Both the position numbers and the translations under genes were made by a program. DNA of 56,235 nucleotides from Clostridia bacterium (GTDB lineage: Bacteria > Bacillota > Clostridia > Oscillospirales > CAG-272), in contig JAFYOX010000031.1 of assembly GCA_017547755.1 (NCBI GenBank), positions 1-56,235 on the forward strand. The letters run 5' to 3'. The first letter of the stretch is position 1, and every line of letters starts with the position of its first letter. Below the pieces are notes generated by a model. That model had not been told where the DNA came from, did not search any database, and saw only the letters and a list, made by a program, of their open reading frames with translations. This document shows positions 125 through 9,185 of the stretch, piece after piece.

Positions 125-280
125 GGTGGAGTTAATCAGTATTTACTTAAGCACGAAGCCGGCACCCTCGGCTTTGAGCTGTCCTGCCCGATTTATCTGC
201 TTGAAAACCAGTACCGGCACATGACTGAGTACCTGCACGACCTTGAGGTCCGTGCGGAAATCGAGAAAATCACCCTGTAA
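125..280 (+). pseudogene. C-terminal remnant of an unknown gene
   Basis: An open frame without a start codon encodes about 51 residues ending in RAEIEKITL and a TAA at 278-280. It includes the segment GTLGFELSCPIYLLENQY, which reads like genuine protein (mixed hydrophobic and charged, no low complexity). The frame is closed upstream by a TAG at 122, next to the putative IS, so I read this as the 3' end of a gene cut by the insertion. I do not recognise the family. The codon use resembles the small genes that follow in the accessory element. Confidence 0.5.
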
Positions 281-639: not shown

Positions 640-870
640 TCACAACTCTTCGCCTGTGTCGTTCATTATGAGTCTTGTTTCGTAGGTGCAGTTCAGCGCT
701 TCAGCTATGGTGCGGATTTCTTTTTCAGAAAAATTATCTCGTGATAATTTGTTAGATAGGTTCTGCCGGGAGGTCCCCAGCTTTTCGGCAAGGTGGACAA
801 TCGTGATCCCGCGCCGGTCCAACATCACCCTGATTTTTTCGCCGATAGATAGTGCCATACAGTGAATCAC
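640..870 (-). CDS. XRE/Cro-CI family transcriptional regulator
   Basis: A protein of 72-76 residues, nearly all one helix-turn-helix DNA-binding domain: the segment HLAEKLGTSRQNLSNKLSR has the XRE pattern (Q at the start of the recognition helix, followed by hydrophobic spacing). The start is either GTG at 870 or ATG at 858 (MALSIGEKIRVML); the Shine-Dalgarno AGAAAGG is too close to the former and rather far from the latter, so the start is unresolved. The gene is transcribed divergently from the element's long plus-strand operon. It is probably the element's repressor, controlling both promoters through the palindrome at 967-980. Confidence 0.85.
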   Translation of the reverse strand: MIHCMALSIGEKIRVMLDRRGITIVHLAEKLGTSRQNLSNKLSRDNFSEKEIRTIAEALNCTYETRLIMNDTGEEL

Positions 871-956: not shown

Positions 957-985
957 TTGACAAACGACACTAAATAGTGTACAAT
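957..985 (+). promoter_or_regulatory. Promoter of the plus-strand element operon
   Basis: TTGACA at 957-962, a 17-base spacer, then TACAAT at 980-985. This sits 55 bases before the first start codon (1040) of the run of plus-strand genes and should be the element's main early-type promoter. Confidence 0.8.
967..980. promoter_or_regulatory. Operator-like palindrome in the promoter spacer
   Basis: ACACTAAATAGTGT is a perfect 14-base palindrome filling most of the spacer between the -35 and -10 boxes and touching the first base of the -10 box. A bound dimer would block RNA polymerase. The divergent XRE protein is the obvious candidate ligand; binding is inferred, not shown. Confidence 0.65.
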
Positions 986-1039: not shown

Positions 1040-1306
1040 ATGAAGATTATCATTTCTGCCAGCGTTGAATTCAACACCCCTGAAGACGTTCTCGATTATG
1101 AAGCCCTCGACGTCAGCGAAACCCCCGAAGATGACGTGCCCCCGATCCTGAACGCGGTAAACTACAAGGTCGGTTACAAGCACATCGTCATCGAAACGGA
1201 CACCGGCAATGTTGTTTTCCTTCGTAAGGACACAAAGGGTATGGCGGTTGACGGTCAGCCCATCGTCCTTCGTGGTGACGGCTTCCAGCGTATCAACTGC
1301 GACTAA
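1040..1306 (+). CDS. Hypothetical small protein, first gene of the element operon
   Basis: Encodes 88 residues beginning MKIIISASVEFNTPEDVLDY. The ATG at 1040 is chosen because AAAGGAG lies at a normal distance upstream; longer frames lack a ribosome site. The N-terminus is a short beta-like stretch followed by an acidic segment; no signal peptide or membrane segment. I do not recognise the family. Its TAA stop (1304-1306) is immediately followed by copy 1 of the intercistronic RNA element. Confidence 0.7.
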   Translation: MKIIISASVEFNTPEDVLDYEALDVSETPEDDVPPILNAVNYKVGYKHIVIETDTGNVVFLRKDTKGMAVDGQPIVLRGDGFQRINCD

Positions 1307-1381
1307 TGCAGAGTGGCGGGGCTTCGGCCCTGTTAATGCACACGGCACAAGCCGTCCGGTCACAAGTCCGGGAGGAAGGAG
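1307..1381 (+). promoter_or_regulatory. Intercistronic structured RNA element, copy 1
   Basis: Directly after a stop codon. Outer stem UGCA (1307-1310) with UGCA (1337-1340); inner stem CGGGGC (1317-1322) with GCCCUG (1327-1332) capped by UUCG; an extra hairpin 1342-1346/1351-1355 unique to this copy; second stem CCGG (1356-1359) with CCGG (1368-1371) around the loop UCACAAGU. GUGG at 1313-1316 can pair with the loop UCAC at 1360-1363 (one G-U wobble). The Shine-Dalgarno GGAGGAAGGAG follows at once, with ATG at 1388. Confidence 0.7.
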
Positions 1382-1387
1382 ACATAA

Positions 1388-1654
1388 ATGAAACAGTTTA
1401 AGAAAGTAACTACTGTAAACCACAGAAATCGTGAGTTTTACATCCTTCAGGATGAAAATGGCTTCTGGGCGATTGAATCGAAGTGGTTCGACAAAAACGG
1501 GGTTCTCACCAAAGGTTTTAACGGCCTGACCGGAATGCTCAATCGTGTTGCAGGGGCCACAATCAAGGCTTGCAAAGCACTCATTGATTACGAGTATTAC
1601 GTGAACGAGTGCGGCATGGAAAAACTTGATGCGCTCAAGAAGGTTTACGGGTAA
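1388..1654 (+). CDS. Hypothetical protein
   Basis: Encodes 88 residues starting MKQFKKVTTVNHRNREFYIL. The strong purine-rich ribosome site ending RNA-element copy 1 fixes the start. The sequence is soluble-looking, basic at the N-terminus with a central FNGLTGML segment; no family recognised. The stop TAA (1652-1654) is two bases before the second copy of the RNA element, so the gene is sandwiched between two copies. Confidence 0.65.
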   Translation: MKQFKKVTTVNHRNREFYILQDENGFWAIESKWFDKNGVLTKGFNGLTGMLNRVAGATIKACKALIDYEYYVNECGMEKLDALKKVYG

Positions 1655-1656
1655 AT

Positions 1657-1722
1657 CGCAGAGTGACGGGGCACAGTCCCCGGTAATGCGGCGGCACGGT
1701 CACAAGCCCGTGCAGAAAGAGG
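1657..1722 (+). promoter_or_regulatory. Intercistronic structured RNA element, copy 2
   Basis: Outer stem CGCA (1657-1660) with UGCG (1687-1690); inner stem CGGGG (1667-1671) with CCCCG (1678-1682), a full compensatory exchange relative to CCGCC/GGCGG in copies 3-5; second stem GCACGG (1694-1699) with CCGUGC (1708-1713). GUGA at 1663-1666 is complementary to the loop UCAC at 1700-1703. AGAAAGAGG (1714-1722) is the ribosome site for the ATG at 1728. Confidence 0.75.
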
Positions 1723-1727
1723 CTAAC

Positions 1728-1964
1728 ATGGATAAGTTACATGAGCTCCATAGAATTCACCGTGAATTAGTTCAGATGGCAGAGCGTGAAGCCACCCACC
1801 TTTGGAGACTGGCAAGAAAAGCAGAGGAACACGGTGTCTCTCCCGACACCGTAGCAGCTATCAGAGAAGAAGCCGATTACTGCTACCGCATCCTGACAGC
1901 AAGTCCGGCACGGATGATCGAATGGGACTTTCAGTATAAAATGAAATACGCTTTCAAAGTGTGA
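1728..1964 (+). CDS. Hypothetical helical protein
   Basis: Encodes 78 residues starting MDKLHELHRIHRELVQMAER. The start at 1728 is set by the ribosome site at the end of RNA-element copy 2; an upstream frame extension to 1626 would translate through the RNA element and is rejected. The composition (many E, R, A, H; no proline in the first half) suggests a small all-helical protein. No family recognised. The downstream gene follows after 12 bases. Confidence 0.65.
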   Translation: MDKLHELHRIHRELVQMAEREATHLWRLARKAEEHGVSPDTVAAIREEADYCYRILTASPARMIEWDFQYKMKYAFKV

Positions 1965-1976
1965 AAGGAGCCAGAG

Positions 1977-2246
1977 ATGACACGTCATGAAGCGGCGCGA
2001 AAAGTGCGTGACTGTTTGGCACGGGGGTATCGTGTTGAATCCGAATCGATATACGAACGCAGTGCGATTCGCATATTGTCATCGAACACAGGTTACAAAT
2101 GGTTAGTTGAATATACTCCAAACGAAAAAGGTGAATTAACTGCGTCGGACGTAAGACTGTTCGATCCCCTCACTGAAGTTCTACGGGACAATTCAGCGGC
2201 GGGTAAGCTGATATCCTATAACGCCTTTCGGATAAACGCAGAGTGA
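1977..2246 (+). CDS. Hypothetical protein
   Basis: Encodes 89 residues starting MTRHEAARKVRDCLARGYRV, with an AAGGAG ribosome site overlapping the end of the previous gene. This junction has no RNA element. The stop codon is notable: it is the TGA inside the conserved GAGTGA of RNA-element copy 3, so the last codons are encoded by the element. No family recognised; soluble, mixed alpha/beta by eye. Confidence 0.65.
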   Translation: MTRHEAARKVRDCLARGYRVESESIYERSAIRILSSNTGYKWLVEYTPNEKGELTASDVRLFDPLTEVLRDNSAAGKLISYNAFRINAE

Positions 2247-2300
2247 CCGCCTACGGGCGGGTAATGCGGCAGCACGGTCACAAGCCCGTGCAGAAAGAGG
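2237..2300 (+). promoter_or_regulatory. Intercistronic structured RNA element, copy 3
   Basis: Outer stem CGCA (2237-2240) with UGCG (2265-2268); inner stem CCGCC (2247-2251) with GGCGG (2256-2260), loop UACG; second stem GCACGG (2272-2277) with CCGUGC (2286-2291). GUGA at 2243-2246, which is also the upstream stop codon region, can pair with UCAC at 2278-2281. The ribosome site AGAAAGAGG ends at 2300. Confidence 0.75.
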
Positions 2301-2309
2301 TTTTTGAAA

Positions 2310-2585
2310 ATGGATAAGACTAAACGCTTCGAGATGATTAAGGCAATGGAACTGATTGCCCGTCAGGTCAATGACGAATGTATCTTTGAACAGTGGTTGA
2401 TGTGTGGTGTTGCCGATGGTGACATCGACAAGAACACCACTCCCGACGAGTTGGAAGACTACATGGATGATGAGGATTTTGCAGAACTCATGAGTACCTT
2501 CATTCATGTTATCGCCTGTGCCGGTAAGCACGGCGGCCTGTACTGTGATGGCGTGGTAAGCAAGGCACCGGAGGATCAGATATGA
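2310..2585 (+). CDS. Hypothetical acidic protein
   Basis: Encodes 91 residues starting MDKTKRFEMIKAMELIARQV. The ATG at 2310 is preferred to a TTG at 2304 because it is nine bases from AGAGG, against three. It has a very acidic middle (TPDELEDYMDDEDFAEL). No family recognised. Its TGA overlaps the next start (ATGA at 2582-2585), implying translational coupling. Confidence 0.65.
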   Translation: MDKTKRFEMIKAMELIARQVNDECIFEQWLMCGVADGDIDKNTTPDELEDYMDDEDFAELMSTFIHVIACAGKHGGLYCDGVVSKAPEDQI

Positions 2586-2725
2586 AGAAGTATGAAATAA
2601 CCTACGATGACGGCTACAACTACAGCTACTTCAGAACTTACGCAAAGAACAAAAAAGAAGCCCGTAAGAATTTCAAAGAAGCGATGGGAAAGCGTTATAG
2701 GATCATCGAGATAGAGGAAATCTAA
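2582..2725 (+). CDS. Small hypothetical protein (47 aa)
   Basis: A 47-residue frame, MKKYEITYDDGYNYSYFRTY at the start and a basic middle (KNKKEARKNFKEAMGKRY), coupled to the preceding gene by an ATGA overlap. The codon use matches its neighbours, and the stop TAA sits one base before RNA-element copy 4, as in other true genes here; this positional rule supports it being real. The function is unknown. Confidence 0.6.
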   Translation: MKKYEITYDDGYNYSYFRTYAKNKKEARKNFKEAMGKRYRIIEIEEI

Positions 2726-2726
2726 T

Positions 2727-2790
2727 CGCAGAGTGACCGCCTACACAGGCGGGTAATGCGGCAGTACGGTCACAAGCCCGTGCAGAAAGG
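2727..2790 (+). promoter_or_regulatory. Intercistronic structured RNA element, copy 4
   Basis: Outer stem CGCA (2727-2730) with UGCG (2757-2760); inner stem CCGCC (2737-2741) with GGCGG (2748-2752) and a longer loop; second stem GUACGG (2764-2769) with CCGUGC (2778-2783), where a U-G wobble replaces the C-G of copies 2 and 3. GUGA 2733-2736 and UCAC 2770-2773 are kept. AGAAAGG (2784-2790) serves the ATG at 2798. Confidence 0.75.
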
Positions 2791-2797
2791 AAAAATT

Positions 2798-3445
2798 ATG
2801 AAGAAATATCTTGTCAAAACCGCTATCCCTTCTCGAAAGAACCGCTGGGAGGCAAGCGTAGATGAAAGAACCATTAAAGCGGAAAACTTTAACGGTATGT
2901 TGATAAAAGCAATAACCCCTGATGAACTTAGTGCGGGCGCAAGAATCTTTGAAATCGAAGAACTCGCTACTATGGTTAAATCGTTCTATTTCCCGCTCAC
3001 GGTTTACAATCATGACAATCTTTATTTCGGAGGCGAATCCAGCGAAAAACTCGATAGCGGAATTGCAGTGCGCTATCGGTCTTACATCGAACAGGCTTTT
3101 CAGAATTATCAAGGCAATGACAACATGGCTGAGTATTTCGATGAATACGACAGTAAAACAGCCTACAAAAAGATCAAGTGTGCAGAATGGAAGTTTGAAG
3201 AGGTCAATGGTTGTCTTTGGGGAAAAGTTAATGTAAGTCTCACCGAAAAACTTACCACAGACGAAACGGAAGAATTAAAAGACTGGATTTCCGGACAAAA
3301 TTCGGATGGTCTCGGAGAAGGCTTTGAGCAGCAGGAAATTCGCACATACAATCATACAATCTCGGTATCTTTTTGGAATCCCGACGACAACTACCGCATT
3401 TATGATGAGATCGAATTTGGAAACCTTAGATATAATCTGAATTGA
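2798..3445 (+). CDS. Hypothetical protein with conserved-looking C-terminal segment
   Basis: Encodes 215 residues; the start at 2798 (MKKYLVKTAIPSRKNRWEAS) is set by the ribosome site at the end of RNA-element copy 4. The C-terminal third contains LKDWISGQNSDGLGEGFEQQ followed by beta-type sequence (ISVSFWNPDDNYRIYDEIEF); I have a vague memory of this G-EGFEQ pattern in uncharacterised proteins of Clostridial mobile elements but cannot name a family. No membrane segment or catalytic motif is evident. The TGA stop is one base before RNA-element copy 5. Confidence 0.65.
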   Translation: MKKYLVKTAIPSRKNRWEASVDERTIKAENFNGMLIKAITPDELSAGARIFEIEELATMVKSFYFPLTVYNHDNLYFGGESSEKLDSGIAVRYRSYIEQAFQNYQGNDNMAEYFDEYDSKTAYKKIKCAEWKFEEVNGCLWGKVNVSLTEKLTTDETEELKDWISGQNSDGLGEGFEQQEIRTYNHTISVSFWNPDDNYRIYDEIEFGNLRYNLN

Positions 3446-3446
3446 T

Positions 3447-3510
3447 CGCAGAGTGACCGCCTACGGGCGGGTAATGCGGGATGCCGGTCACAACCCCGGC
3501 AAGAAGGAGG
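3447..3510 (+). promoter_or_regulatory. Intercistronic structured RNA element, copy 5
   Basis: Outer stem CGCA (3447-3450) with UGCG (3475-3478); inner stem CCGCC (3457-3461) with GGCGG (3466-3470); second stem GCCGG (3483-3487) with CCGGC (3496-3500), a compensated change relative to copies 2-4, around UCACAACC. GUGA 3453-3456 and UCAC 3488-3491 are conserved. AAGAAGGAGG (3501-3510) is the ribosome site for the ATG at 3517. Confidence 0.75.
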
Positions 3511-3516
3511 TAACGC

Positions 3517-3927
3517 ATGAACATATCAAATGAACGGCTGAGAAGCCTTTGCATCAAGCATCAGTGGTTCACCGAAGGGACTTGTGAACAGTATGACAAG
3601 CTGTTCTATGCCAACACACACGGCGCACCCGTTGAGGAAATTGTAACAATGGTCTGGCTGTGCAGCGACGCTGAAACGTGGTGCCGGCGCAACATCAAAT
3701 CCATTCTCGAAACCGAAGGTGACAGCTCTGCTTACAAACATGAAGTCTGGTGTGTTGATCGCGGTAATAACTTCAACGGTATGATCGACTGCCGCCTTTT
3801 CGCTGATTACGAACCGGCGAAGGAATATTATGACGGGATCGGTGAAGATTCCTACCGACGAATCTACTCAGCTCCTGATATCTGGAACTATCTTGAAAGA
3901 ACATGGAAGGAGGGTGAAACCCTATGA
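3517..3927 (+). CDS. Hypothetical protein
   Basis: Encodes 136 residues starting MNISNERLRSLCIKHQWFTE, with a strong AAGGAGG ribosome site. It contains several Trp and Cys residues (VWLCSDAETWCRRN) without a recognisable metal-binding spacing. Its end overlaps the methyltransferase start by four bases (ATGA at 3924-3927), so the two are probably co-translated. No family recognised; it may be a partner of the methyltransferase, which is inference from coupling only. Confidence 0.65.
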   Translation: MNISNERLRSLCIKHQWFTEGTCEQYDKLFYANTHGAPVEEIVTMVWLCSDAETWCRRNIKSILETEGDSSAYKHEVWCVDRGNNFNGMIDCRLFADYEPAKEYYDGIGEDSYRRIYSAPDIWNYLERTWKEGETL

Positions 3928-5723
3928 ATAAAGCTGTTGTCCATTACGCAGAGGGCGGGGAGGAATTCTACCCCACCCCTGCCGCTCTTATTGATCGTAT
4001 GCTTTCCGGCATTGACTGGCGCATGATCCGCAATATCCTTGAACCCAGTGCGGGTAAAGGTGATATCGTACTTCACATTCTCCGCAAGAACTACCGTGAC
4101 CGTTACGGCGACAGAGAAAACCGTTTCGGGGGTATCTCTGTAGACTGCATCGAACTCGATCCGCACCTGACAAGCATTCTTAAATACAACTTCAGCCGTG
4201 AAAAAGCTCTGATCTTCCAGCCCACCATTGATAAGTACCGGGAAATGGATTACCGGAAAGTTACACCGGAGATGCAGCGGGAACAGGACACGGCCCTGCG
4301 TGAAAAGCACATCTGTGAAAGTGAAGCAGTCCATGTGGTATTCGATGACTTTCTTCAGTATGAGCCCTTCAAAGAATATGACCTAATCGTGATGAACCCG
4401 CCTTTCTCCAACGGATGTACTCACCTGCTCAAGGCACTGGACATTCAAAAGCGCGGCGGTTCCATCGTGTGTCTGCTGAACGCGGAAACGATACGCAACC
4501 CCTACACGCAGCAGCGGAAAGAGCTTCGCCGGCTGCTGGACCGTTACGGTGCGTCCATCGAATATATCGAAAACGCTTTCGTTCATGCTGAACGCCAGAC
4601 TGATGTTGAAGTGGCACTTATCAAAGTGTGCATCCCGACTGTGGCAGAGGAAAGCGACTTCTACGAGCGAATGAAAAAGGCTGAAAAACTGGATGACGAA
4701 TACGGAGCGAACCCCTCTCTTGAGTTGGACGTTACCGACTACATCAAATCCGCAGTAGCCCACTTCAGAGTGGAAACGAAAGCAGGGCTTGAACTGATCC
4801 GACAATTCAGAGCATTTCAGCCGTACATGAAGAAAGAACTGAATCCGAAAAGCCCTTACGGGAACGACTGCATTCTCCGTCTGACCGATTCAAGTGATCG
4901 CGGATATGATAGCGTTTCGGTGAACAGCTATCTTGAAAAGACCCGGCTCAAATATTGGAGCGCACTGCTTTCCAATCCGAAGTTTATCGGCAAGCTGACA
5001 AGCAAGCTGCAAAGCGAATACCGCGAAAAGGTTGACCGCCTGAAGGATTACGACTTCAACGAATATAACATTCAGGTACTTTCCGTAGAGATCATGGCAC
5101 AGGTCAGAACGGGCATAGAGGATGAAATAATCGCTATGTTCGACCGTCTGACCGCGGACCATACGTGGTCCCCTGAGTGCGCCAACAATCGTCATTACTA
5201 CGACGGTTGGGCAACCAATAAGGCTTGGAAGGTAAACAAGAAAGTCATCATCCCGTGTTACGGTCTGTATGACGAATATGACGGTCTGCCTCGGAAGTAT
5301 AAGGCGGTCGAAGTCCTGTCTGATATCGAGAAGATTTTCAACTTCTTTGATGGGCACATGACCGCTGACGTTGATCTGGGATCGCGGATTGAGGATTACT
5401 TCAGCCGCCGTGAAACTAAAAACGTTCCGTGTAAGTTCTTTACTGCGACTTTCTACAAGAAAGGCACCGTACATATCACTTTCACCTGCCCGGAACTGTT
5501 AGAGCGTTTCAACATCTATGCTGCCCAAAACAGGGGTTGGCTGCCGCCGTCCTACGGAAAGAAGAAGTATGCTGACATGAACCCCGGCGAAAAGAAAGTT
5601 GTGGATTCTTTTCAGGGTGAAAAGCAGTACGCAAAAGTTTTGAGCAACACCAACTACTATCTTGCTTCGCCTGTCCGTGTTGATACCATGCCGCTTTTGG
5701 CCGGAGGAATGAATGAATCGTAA
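3924..5723 (+). CDS. Adenine-specific DNA methyltransferase with DUF4942-like C-terminus
   Basis: Encodes 599 residues. The N-terminal half is an N6-adenine methyltransferase: FYPTP at 15-19, AdoMet-binding motif I EPSAGKGDI at 40-48, an acidic motif II (CIELDP, 75-80), DDF at about 141-143 and the catalytic NPPF motif IV in DLIVMNPPF (153-161). It would transfer a methyl group from AdoMet to adenine N6 in DNA. The C-terminal part, with TNKAWKVNKKVIIP and later FYKKGTVHITF, matches my memory of the DUF4942 domain seen in plasmid and phage methyltransferases. No restriction endonuclease or specificity subunit is nearby, so it is probably an orphan enzyme that protects or regulates the element. 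It is coupled to the gene upstream. Confidence 0.85.
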   Translation: MNKAVVHYAEGGEEFYPTPAALIDRMLSGIDWRMIRNILEPSAGKGDIVLHILRKNYRDRYGDRENRFGGISVDCIELDPHLTSILKYNFSREKALIFQPTIDKYREMDYRKVTPEMQREQDTALREKHICESEAVHVVFDDFLQYEPFKEYDLIVMNPPFSNGCTHLLKALDIQKRGGSIVCLLNAETIRNPYTQQRKELRRLLDRYGASIEYIENAFVHAERQTDVEVALIKVCIPTVAEESDFYERMKKAEKLDDEYGANPSLELDVTDYIKSAVAHFRVETKAGLELIRQFRAFQPYMKKELNPKSPYGNDCILRLTDSSDRGYDSVSVNSYLEKTRLKYWSALLSNPKFIGKLTSKLQSEYREKVDRLKDYDFNEYNIQVLSVEIMAQVRTGIEDEIIAMFDRLTADHTWSPECANNRHYYDGWATNKAWKVNKKVIIPCYGLYDEYDGLPRKYKAVEVLSDIEKIFNFFDGHMTADVDLGSRIEDYFSRRETKNVPCKFFTATFYKKGTVHITFTCPELLERFNIYAAQNRGWLPPSYGKKKYADMNPGEKKVVDSFQGEKQYAKVLSNTNYYLASPVRVDTMPLLAGGMNES

Positions 5724-6292: not shown

Positions 6293-6307
6293 TTGGAGGA
6301 CTCAACA

Positions 6308-6784
6308 ATGGTACGTGAAACAACAGGTGACCTTCTCACCTTCGACGCAAATTTGATTTGTCATCAGGTAAACTATTACGGTGTGATGGGCGGCGGGATC
6401 GCCGCCTCCATCCGTGAAAAGATGTTGCCGGAAGAACAGTACGCGAGATATGTTCAATATTGCGCTAACAACGGAAGGAACGCATTAGGCGGCATTCTGT
6501 ATTTACCGACGTATGACGGCGATACGGTTATCGCCAACCTTTTCAGTCAGGACGATTTTACCACGAACTACTCAGCATTACAGGGGTGTCTTAGGAACGT
6601 GGAATTGCTGGCCAGTGCTATGGGCTGGACTGTAGCACTGCCGGGGAACATGGGGTGTGGAATCGCTGATGGCGACTGGGGCACAGTGCGCGATATCATT
6701 CAGGATATTTTCGCAGAATCTCCTGTGGAGCTGACCATCGTTTACTGGTACGCTGATCGTCCCGGCAAGTTACGGGCAAATTAA
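6308..6784 (+). CDS. Macro-domain protein (ADP-ribose binding/hydrolase-like)
   Basis: Encodes 158 residues. The start at 6308 has GGAGG eight bases upstream; a TTG at 6293 is less likely. The macro-domain signature is clear: GDLL at 7-10, ICHQVNYYGVMGGGIA (17-32, the ADP-ribose contacting Asn and glycine loop) and LPGNMGCGIADGDW at 111-124 (the second phosphate-binding loop). It is closest by eye to the Poa1/ADP-ribose-1''-phosphate phosphatase type with a GDL motif. The family binds or removes ADP-ribose from proteins, nucleic acids or metabolites. It is the last gene of the element's operon, which raises a role in defence, counter-defence or NAD/ADP-ribose signalling; no toxin partner (e.g. 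ADP-ribosyltransferase) is visible beside it. Confidence 0.85.
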   Translation: MVRETTGDLLTFDANLICHQVNYYGVMGGGIAASIREKMLPEEQYARYVQYCANNGRNALGGILYLPTYDGDTVIANLFSQDDFTTNYSALQGCLRNVELLASAMGWTVALPGNMGCGIADGDWGTVRDIIQDIFAESPVELTIVYWYADRPGKLRAN

Positions 6785-6878: not shown

Positions 6879-6908
6879 TTTCTGCATTTTCAGCAAATTA
6901 CAGGCAAA

Positions 6909-6960
6909 TTAAAATAAGATTGCCGGGAGGCTTAATAACCTTCCGGCAATCTTATTTTAA
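6909..6960. terminator. Strong hairpin terminator, probably of ssrA
   Basis: TTAAAATAAGATTGCCGG (6909-6926) and CCGGCAATCTTATTTTAA (6943-6960) are perfect 18-base inverted repeats. Read on the minus strand it starts about 50 bases after the mature tmRNA 3' end and leaves a TTATTTTAAT tail, so it probably terminates the tmRNA transcript; it could act in both directions. Confidence 0.65.
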
Positions 6961-7011
6961 TCTGGAACACATGACCGAACCACCTTATACGGGGTTCGTA
7001 TGTGTGTGTTA

Positions 7012-7394
7012 TGGTGGAGACGGCGGGAGTCGAACCCGCGTCCGAAAACCGATTCATGCAACTTTCTCCGGGTGCAGACCGTCTTTTGTGTTTCCCGCCA
7101 GCAGCCCCGGCGGTCAGGGTATGCTGGTCGGTAGCCCTTTCGTGCGTGACGGATGCAAGAGCGAACTCACCGTTCACGGACGCCACTCATTTGATGCCGT
7201 GGTCAAATCAGGACGCACTCCCATTCGGGACATTTCGGGGCCGTGGCACTCCCCGAACGGACAGCTGCCTTAGTTAGGCAGCAACTAACATTTCGTCGTT
7301 AGCGTTTAATTTAAAAATAGGGATTATTATAGAGATTCCCCATCTCTACCCGCTTATCGCACTGCACAATCCCCGTCGAAACCTTTACGTCCCC
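7012..7394 (-). ncRNA. ssrA: tmRNA (transfer-messenger RNA)
   Basis: The mature 5' end reads GGGGACGTAAAGGTTTCGAC (from 7394) and the 3' end carries the tRNA-like T-arm GGTTCGACTCCCGCC and acceptor GTCTCCACCA ending at 7012; GGGGAC pairs with GTCTCC (one G-U). The tag frame at 7303-7274 encodes A-N-D-E-M-L-V-A-A then TAA, matching the usual A..xLAA-type degradation tag. tmRNA with SmpB rescues ribosomes stalled on broken mRNAs and tags the peptide for proteolysis. smpB lies 1.3 kb upstream. The 3' end faces the mobile element, and tmRNA 3' ends are classic integrase attachment sites. Confidence 0.93.
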
Positions 7395-8696: not shown

Positions 8697-9185
8697 TCAA
8701 TCCTCATAATCGCGTCTGCCGCGGGACTTTGTCACACGCTCGATTTCACGGCTTGCTTCCGCCTTGGCGTCGGATTCACGCTTATCCCAGAGCTTTTTCC
8801 CCTTGCACAGTCCCACTTCCATCTTGACGTTGGAGCCGGAGAAGTACAGCGAGAGCGGAACGAGCGTGTAGCTGTCACGGGTCACGTACTGCTGGAGTTT
8901 GAGGATCTCCTTCTTGTGCATGAGCAGCTTCTTGTCGCGCATGGGGTCACGGTTGAAGATGTTTCCCTTTTCGTACGGCGAAATATGCACGCCGAGCGCG
9001 AACATTTCCCCGTCGATCACGCGGCAGTACGAATCCTTCAGGTTCACCTGCCCGTTCCGGAGACTCTTTACTTCCGTCCCGAACAGCGCGATCCCCGCTT
9101 CATACGTATCTTCCACAAAATAATCATGCCGCGCCTTCCGGTTGACAGCGATGATCTTCCGTCCTGTATTTTTGTTTTCAGCCAT
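8697..9185 (-). CDS. smpB: SsrA-binding protein SmpB
   Basis: Encodes 162 residues, the usual length. Recognisable blocks are NRKARHDYFVEDTYEAGIAL near the N-terminus, GTEVKSLRNGQVNLKDSYCR (36-55), ALGVHISPYEKGN and the C-terminal basic tail GKKLWDKRE that normally becomes helical in the ribosome. It binds tmRNA's tRNA-like domain and delivers it to stalled ribosomes. ssrA lies downstream on the same strand, a common pairing. The gene sits 20 bases downstream of the ACT-domain gene and may share its transcript. Confidence 0.96.
   Translation of the reverse strand: MAENKNTGRKIIAVNRKARHDYFVEDTYEAGIALFGTEVKSLRNGQVNLKDSYCRVIDGEMFALGVHISPYEKGNIFNRDPMRDKKLLMHKKEILKLQQYVTRDSYTLVPLSLYFSGSNVKMEVGLCKGKKLWDKRESDAKAEASREIERVTKSRGRRDYED

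Follow-up and report, generated by a model that had tools for sequence, protein, structure and literature searches.

Why should a single run of small genes carry the same short RNA element at five of its junctions? The question is raised by the left end of a 56,235-nucleotide (nt) stretch from a Clostridia bacterium (assembly GCA_017547755.1, contig JAFYOX010000031.1; one whole contig, hereafter the window). An initial annotation made from the sequence had placed five copies on the + strand, starting at 1307, 1657, 2237, 2727 and 3447, and had read them as a structured cis-acting RNA of no recognized family, a reading to be given up if an existing Rfam family explained them. When the window was scanned against 4227 Rfam families, all five copies, at exactly these positions, matched RF02684, the Twister-P5 self-cleaving ribozyme, with 53.2-61.7 bits against a curated cut-off of 37.6 (window-wide E-values 2.8e-8 to 1.8e-10); the only other match above cut-off is the transfer-messenger RNA (tmRNA). 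The Rfam matches of all five copies rule out a new RNA family. The elements are new members of RF02684, and their interest lies in the genomic context, not in the motif. A search of the whole source genome (75% complete) finds these five Twister-P5 copies only.

Structurally, the five copies do not differ from RF02684: they share its sequence, stems P1, P2 and P4, pseudoknot T1 and U-A cut step. Each aligns over the full length of the model (1-58), with P1 closed as a hairpin (P5 permutation), and has the U-A cleavage step and the conserved loop bases. The parts described by the initial annotation translate directly into twister parts: its outer stem CGCA/UGCG is P2 and its inner stem P1, GAGUGA/GUAA form internal loop L1, the second hairpin with the UCACAA loop is P4/L4, and the proposed GUGA:UCAC pairing is T1. 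The claim of covarying stems also holds. Across an alignment of 55 sequences, standard pairs fill 93.6% of cells in P2, 89.4% in P1 and 94.1% in P4, and the structure as given has a covariation score of 0.467, compared with 0.117 in shuffles. In the scored structure the T1 columns were set one column off (45.5% paired), and T1 was therefore counted separately. The second pseudoknot, T2, is complementary by eye in the five window copies, and a simple T2 fit was obtained, in a count made without a control, for at least 162 of 204 combinations (GGC/GC 70, GGG/CC 38, AC/GT 37, GGA/TC 9, AGC/GC 8).

Such elements are widespread, far beyond what simple recent duplication would give. A search pattern was built from the Rfam consensus with GCAGAG, TAATGC and most of the P4 loop fixed, so that constancy of these bases among its hits is no evidence of conservation; it found 59 stretches in species genomes and, in viral contigs, at least 120. 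Among 66 model hits lying outside the pattern, 57 retain GAG and 56 TAATG. A covariance model from 55 sequences gave 283 matches at E≤0.001, summed over cmsearch runs with 5, 10 (of 11 listed), 72, 97 and 99. Of these, 282 were used (L108:11905, with 26.4 bits, was dropped); with the window included they come from 182 loci, some of which lie on a common contig or are nearly identical to each other. Because L039 and L058 repeat L006 and L007, and L001-L005 repeat the window, these seven loci were excluded. Of 98 genomes that were searched, counting the source genome, four have a match at E≤0.001, and three of the four have one above cut-off.

The placement is widespread too. With 21 of the 282 twisters set aside as too near a locus end, 261 were usable (254 non-redundant). 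We scored an upstream open reading frame (ORF; 40 open codons, not a proven gene) with its stop within -60..+13 of the element, together with a Shine-Dalgarno sequence and start codon downstream. Both are present in 213 of 261 twisters; random positions on the same strand give a mean of 22, and the antisense strand gives 11. This bears out the intergenic placement, ending just ahead of a ribosome site, that had been noticed in the window. Taken by itself, the upstream criterion discriminates poorly (239 of 261, mean of 101 at random, 154 antisense) and the downstream one well (234, 51 and 18, respectively). Stops fall within -5..+7 of the element in 164 of 233 non-redundant cases, compared with 17.7% at random positions. 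Two or more twisters occur at 49 loci, on a single strand in 48 of them. When 16 records were searched whole, 14 had matches, with 20, 15, 7, 7, 6, 6 and fewer each; the viral contig of L167 holds the 20, all above cut-off, and that of L116 the 15, 12 of them above cut-off. Copies near both ends of the 20-copy contig would belong to one row if the genome were circular or permuted. Phage Tunturi_4, isolated on an acidobacterium, has four twisters, all in gaps between annotated genes; the main text of the Tunturi_4 paper does not contain the words ribozyme or twister.

Side observations come from several other loci. At L098:1874-1992 (-), a twister with a long P1 insert gives a 119-nt match. At five Desulfosporosinus loci (L025, L031, L042, L049 and L053) the twister follows a terminator-like GGGGCTTTTTTGAGC, which contains TGA. 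At L179, partial second copies of the twister 3' half lie just after full twisters at 775-846 and 134-203 (-), and look like recombination scars.

The T1 pseudoknot shows what is kept in each copy. One T1 base was not fixed by the pattern, and it pairs in 203 of 204 distinct sequences (TA 145, GC 40, CG 12, AT 5, GT 1). In the model hits (281 copies for this and for the neighbor and half-by-half analyses below, one opposite-strand twister of L142 being omitted) it pairs in 264 of the 267 that are readable, 14 of the 281 not being readable by the script. Two of the three failures, L080 and L131, are matches with shortened 5' ends that shift the count, and the third, L112, is real. When the T1 bases of neighboring copies are crossed, 70 of 88 pairs match and 18 do not; shifted counts explain at least two of the 18, and two represent one pair, seen in loci that are nearly identical. 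The T1 pairs of Tunturi_4 are TA, GC, TA and AT, so that all three neighbor pairs differ and each copy matches itself. Since the match within a copy is kept while neighbors often mismatch, single copies are kept able to fold; unless selection acts on the fold of each copy, the persistence of T1 in rows of mixed type is difficult to account for.

The left 7 kb of the window resemble the terminal part of a prophage or of a related element: a - strand repressor, a facing promoter pair, small genes, a DUF4942/methyltransferase-like protein and a macro-domain protein are followed by the tmRNA gene (Table 1). The operon that holds the ribozymes is probably the early operon of this region; a single likely promoter precedes it, and a CI/Cro-type repressor faces the other way. 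Promoter-like sites of this kind number 10 in the region, with 7.8 expected by chance; the operon promoter is plausible because of its position and divergence, though the site count is near chance. The stops of g1, g2, g6 and g7 sit 0-2 nt 5' of an element.

Table 1. Features of the prophage-like left end of the window, and hammerhead matches near relatives of g5 (positions in the window unless a locus is named).
Feature	Position	Strand	Evidence and remarks
CI/Cro-type helix-turn-helix repressor gene	640..870	-	Pfam HTH_26 3.9e-8, Phage_CI_repr 1.9e-4; transcribed away from operon
Facing promoter TTGACA-17-TATAAT	915-887	-	
Likely operon promoter TTGACA-17-TACAAT	957..985	+	11/12 consensus match
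g1, small gene	1040..1306	+	ORF; stop directly abuts element 1; relative in L151, 88%
Twister-P5 ribozyme 1	1307..1371	+	RF02684, 53.2 bits; cut predicted by homology at 1334/1335
g2, small gene	1388..1654	+	ORF; no family above cut-off
Twister-P5 ribozyme 2	1657..1711	+	RF02684, 58.1 bits; cut predicted by homology at 1684/1685
g3, small gene	1728..1964	+	ORF; no family above cut-off
g4, small gene	1977..2246	+	ORF; TGA stop inside element 3 (GAG-TGA)
Twister-P5 ribozyme 3	2237..2289	+	RF02684, 60.1 bits; cut predicted by homology at 2262/2263
g5, small gene	2310..2585	+	Relatives in L085, L225 and L226
g6, small gene	2582..2725	+	ORF; 4-nt overlap with g5
Twister-P5 ribozyme 4	2727..2781	+	RF02684, 61.7 bits; cut predicted by homology at 2754/2755
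g7	2798..3445	+	Matches in 33/395 family genomes (own included), mostly to about residues 59-209
Twister-P5 ribozyme 5	3447..3499	+	RF02684, 58.4 bits; cut predicted by homology at 3472/3473
g8	3517..3927	+	ORF; 4-nt overlap with g9; relative in L188 (no twister found there)
g9, DUF4942/DNA methyltransferase-like protein	3924..5723	+	Pfam DUF4942 4.1e-31; several PHROGs DNA methyltransferase families
tmRNA gene	7012-7394	-	Rfam; adjoins end of the prophage-like element
Type II hammerhead	L225:6468-6533	+	69.1 bits; overlaps ORF end, precedes ribosome site of next ORF
Hammerhead-II match, sub-cut-off	L085:5245-5304	-	31.9 bits (Rfam cut-off 37); ahead of the initial gene of the five-twister row

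What would a row of twisters do here? We consider it probable that they mediate intercistronic self-processing, which would uncouple small phage genes carried on one early-operon transcript. The chemistry and cut site of twisters are established knowledge. According to review literature, cleavage by small ribozymes of this type yields a 2',3'-cyclic phosphate and a 5'-hydroxyl (5'-OH), and other twisters likewise cut at U-A. By homology, the predicted cut in each window copy is the U/A step before AUGC, giving predicted pieces of 1335-1684, 1685-2262, 2263-2754, 2755-3472 and 3473 onward, with leaders of 53, 43, 47, 43 and 44 nt from the cut to the next ATG (copies 1-5). The analysis above establishes the family, the fold, the covariation of the pseudoknot, the position and the wide occurrence; that the window copies cut in the cell and lie on one common transcript, and what the cutting serves, we infer as follows. 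Each twister would fold during transcription and cut between U and A in the internal loop, 43-53 nt ahead of the next start codon, dividing the message into one- or two-gene mRNAs (g1; g2; g3+g4; g5+g6; g7; g8 onward). Every upstream piece would close with the stable P1 hairpin and carry a 2',3'-cyclic phosphate, and every downstream piece would begin with a 5'-OH leader that supplies the P4 hairpin and a separate ribosome site. The cut would require no host nuclease, and its likely use would be to make small, exchangeable phage genes independent of each other in decay and translation.

Relatives of the window genes bear on this proposal from both sides. The viral contig of L225, in which no twister was found, has a g5 relative, then one more ORF (6295-6483), and after it a type II hammerhead. 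At L085 another g5 relative stands within a row of five twisters (one below the Rfam cut-off), and the weaker hammerhead match ahead of that row has CGAAAC, GUC and CUGAUGA in place by eye, so that one operon possibly contains two ribozyme classes. Together the two cases suggest that cutting itself is what counts. Several observations weigh against it. No twister was found at 29 loci with g7 relatives (L190-L218, about 1.5 kb on each side) or at three with g8 relatives (L188, L223 and L224), and L226, with a g5 relative, shows no ribozyme; cutting is therefore not needed for those genes. L225 is the one exception among 33 loci scanned for other ribozyme classes at Rfam cut-offs, the remaining 32 having none. 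Nor does every junction in the window carry a ribozyme: g3/g4, g5/g6 and g8/g9 have none, their genes nearly touching (12 nt apart or overlapping by 4 nt). As an observation apart, the g5 relative of L225 ends in a short stretch resembling the first bases of the hammerhead, perhaps a scar.

Cleavage might also act in the opposite sense. In B. subtilis, the ribozyme-made 5'-OH end of the glmS message opens it to RNase J1, as an excerpt of PMC3997798 describes. Given this precedent in a Gram-positive host, and the RNase J of the present host, cutting could lower expression instead of freeing it, which counts against the uncoupling proposal. The 5'-OH ends would then be RNase J entry points, and the row a brake or gradient on the early genes. 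The source genome encodes a full RNase J (637.8 bits); the same model scores above cut-off in 9 of 14 control genomes, however, and its presence therefore says little. A P4 hairpin and ribosome site follow every cut, and the same placement recurs in Tunturi_4, a phage of a distant host among the Acidobacteriota, so we regard braking as unlikely. A non-cleaving operator, riboswitch or reinitiation element, close to what the initial annotation had in mind, has in its favor that stop codons lie at the element or within it and that the ribosome site follows. It is scarcely credible, since the copies match a catalytic family in full and retain the cut step, and computation shows no clear hiding of the ribosome site: the chance that the Shine-Dalgarno is unpaired, computed without pseudoknots or ligands for uncut/cut RNA, is 0.37/0.65, 0.49/0.50, 0.39/0.51, 0.64/0.60 and 0.98/0.98 for copies 1-5, with no consistent sign of a switch. 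Translational control by a binding operator or switch is thus neither needed nor supported; what stands of the initial annotation is a structured intergenic RNA with a real, conserved pseudoknot.

Alternatively, the twisters could serve mainly as joints, repeats of about 55 nt at which gene modules are gained, lost or swapped by homologous recombination, with cleavage secondary. The viral contig of L151 is a clear case. It keeps the repressor (by eye; 78% DNA identity over the stretch), g1 and g7 (67%), and it runs from g1 through one twister to g7, lacking g2-g6. That twister is chimeric: its left half resembles copy 1 at 91% (others 73-79%) and its right half copy 4 at 90% (others 56-85%), a pattern that loss or gain of g2-g6 by way of twisters would produce. 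Where, in a pair of homologous genes, only a single member has a twister at its junction, the neighbor differs in 73 of 75 pairs, compared with 275 of 388 without a twister in either and 22 of 34 with one in both, and the twister row of L085 holds the g5 relative with no relatives of other window genes found there. The neighbor and half-by-half tests use crude gene calls of our own, which miss g1 in the window, and the pairs of the neighbor test are not independent. Where only the upstream gene is conserved (9 pairs), similarity is not greater in the left half (median percentile 0.79, against 0.94 in the right half), and where only the downstream gene is conserved (12 pairs), both halves are alike (0.95 and 0.99). 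T1 kept in mixed rows, moreover, needs selection for folding. With one clear chimera and a half-by-half test without clear support, a recombination joint as the general rule was rejected; module exchange is kept as a rival for the same lack of general support, and we think it quite unlikely to be the main role. In a further rival reading, RtcB would seal the modules freed by two neighboring twisters into circular mRNAs. Its substrates are a 5'-OH and a 2',3'-cyclic phosphate, used in twister-flanked synthetic circles (PMC9013764, in part), and the host genome encodes it. RtcB is also found in 9 of 14 control genomes, and neighboring copies often could not form a shared T1, 18 of 88 cross pairs being mismatched, those from shifted counts among them; with only 70 matching, circularization through hybrid ends of neighboring copies was rejected, and we give circles a very slim chance indeed. 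Very unlikely too, as a whole, is a general phage device in which self-cleaving ribozymes of whatever class, in rows that reach about 20 copies, would split one early transcript into many separate mRNAs and double as module joints, the ends of the inner modules being such that the host's RtcB could seal them into circular, long-lived mRNAs.

How much of intercistronic self-processing by such a row is already known? The ribozyme itself is, and in outline so are ribozyme clustering and the link to phages. The glmS ribozyme also cleaves itself ahead of a coding region and leaves a 5'-OH; it differs in being metabolite-triggered and of another class, and it is known as a single copy. Clustered hammerheads in polycistronic RNAs (Perreault 2011, PMC3088659) likewise place several self-cleaving ribozymes on one transcript, some of them phage-linked, and three tandem arrangements gave the expected cleavage products; they are of a different class, and the largest row described in the accessible part of that paper is a triple, whereas the window has five and one record as many as 20. 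Hammerheads and twisters cluster mutually and are enriched near Mu-like phage genes according to the portion available of PMC10085705, whereas the rows reported here are long, of a single class and on the same strand, and keep a fixed register with the stop codon and the ribosome site. For RF02684, the available part of the literature describes no context in which one operon has five copies in succession at its gene junctions. No twister rows of this kind were found in the open-access PubMed Central (PMC) literature searched, though earlier twister papers may describe part of this context, and the main text of a phage ribozyme paper (PMC10879173) contains neither 'twister' nor 'hammerhead'. 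The accessible parts of PMC3088659 and PMC10085705 call the purpose of clustered self-cleaving ribozymes in bacteria and phages unknown. Long rows in fixed register, with copies kept foldable, point to intercistronic processing; similar rows in other phages make it possible to investigate the role of such ribozymes in phages, and concrete test systems can be named, including a cultured phage-host pair (Tunturi_4).

The remaining observations concern the surroundings of the operon. Further left on L151 lies an amidase gene, with a reverse transcriptase gene upstream at L151:3-1001 (+) (RVT_1, 1e-10); the amidase was not found in the source genome (75% complete). Relatives of g1 and of g5 each occur in 1 of 390 genomes of the host family, namely the source genome, and those of g8 in three of 390, the source genome included; a pattern search among viral contigs found no relatives of g9. 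Genes for tmRNA are common integration sites. An ORF at 8697-9185 (-) resembles SmpB by eye. No convincing copy of an attachment site was found for the prophage-like element, the best candidate being a 28-nt match of 82%. An inverted repeat at 6904-6967, between this element and the tmRNA gene, matches a microRNA model on both strands far below cut-off and is more likely a terminator hairpin.

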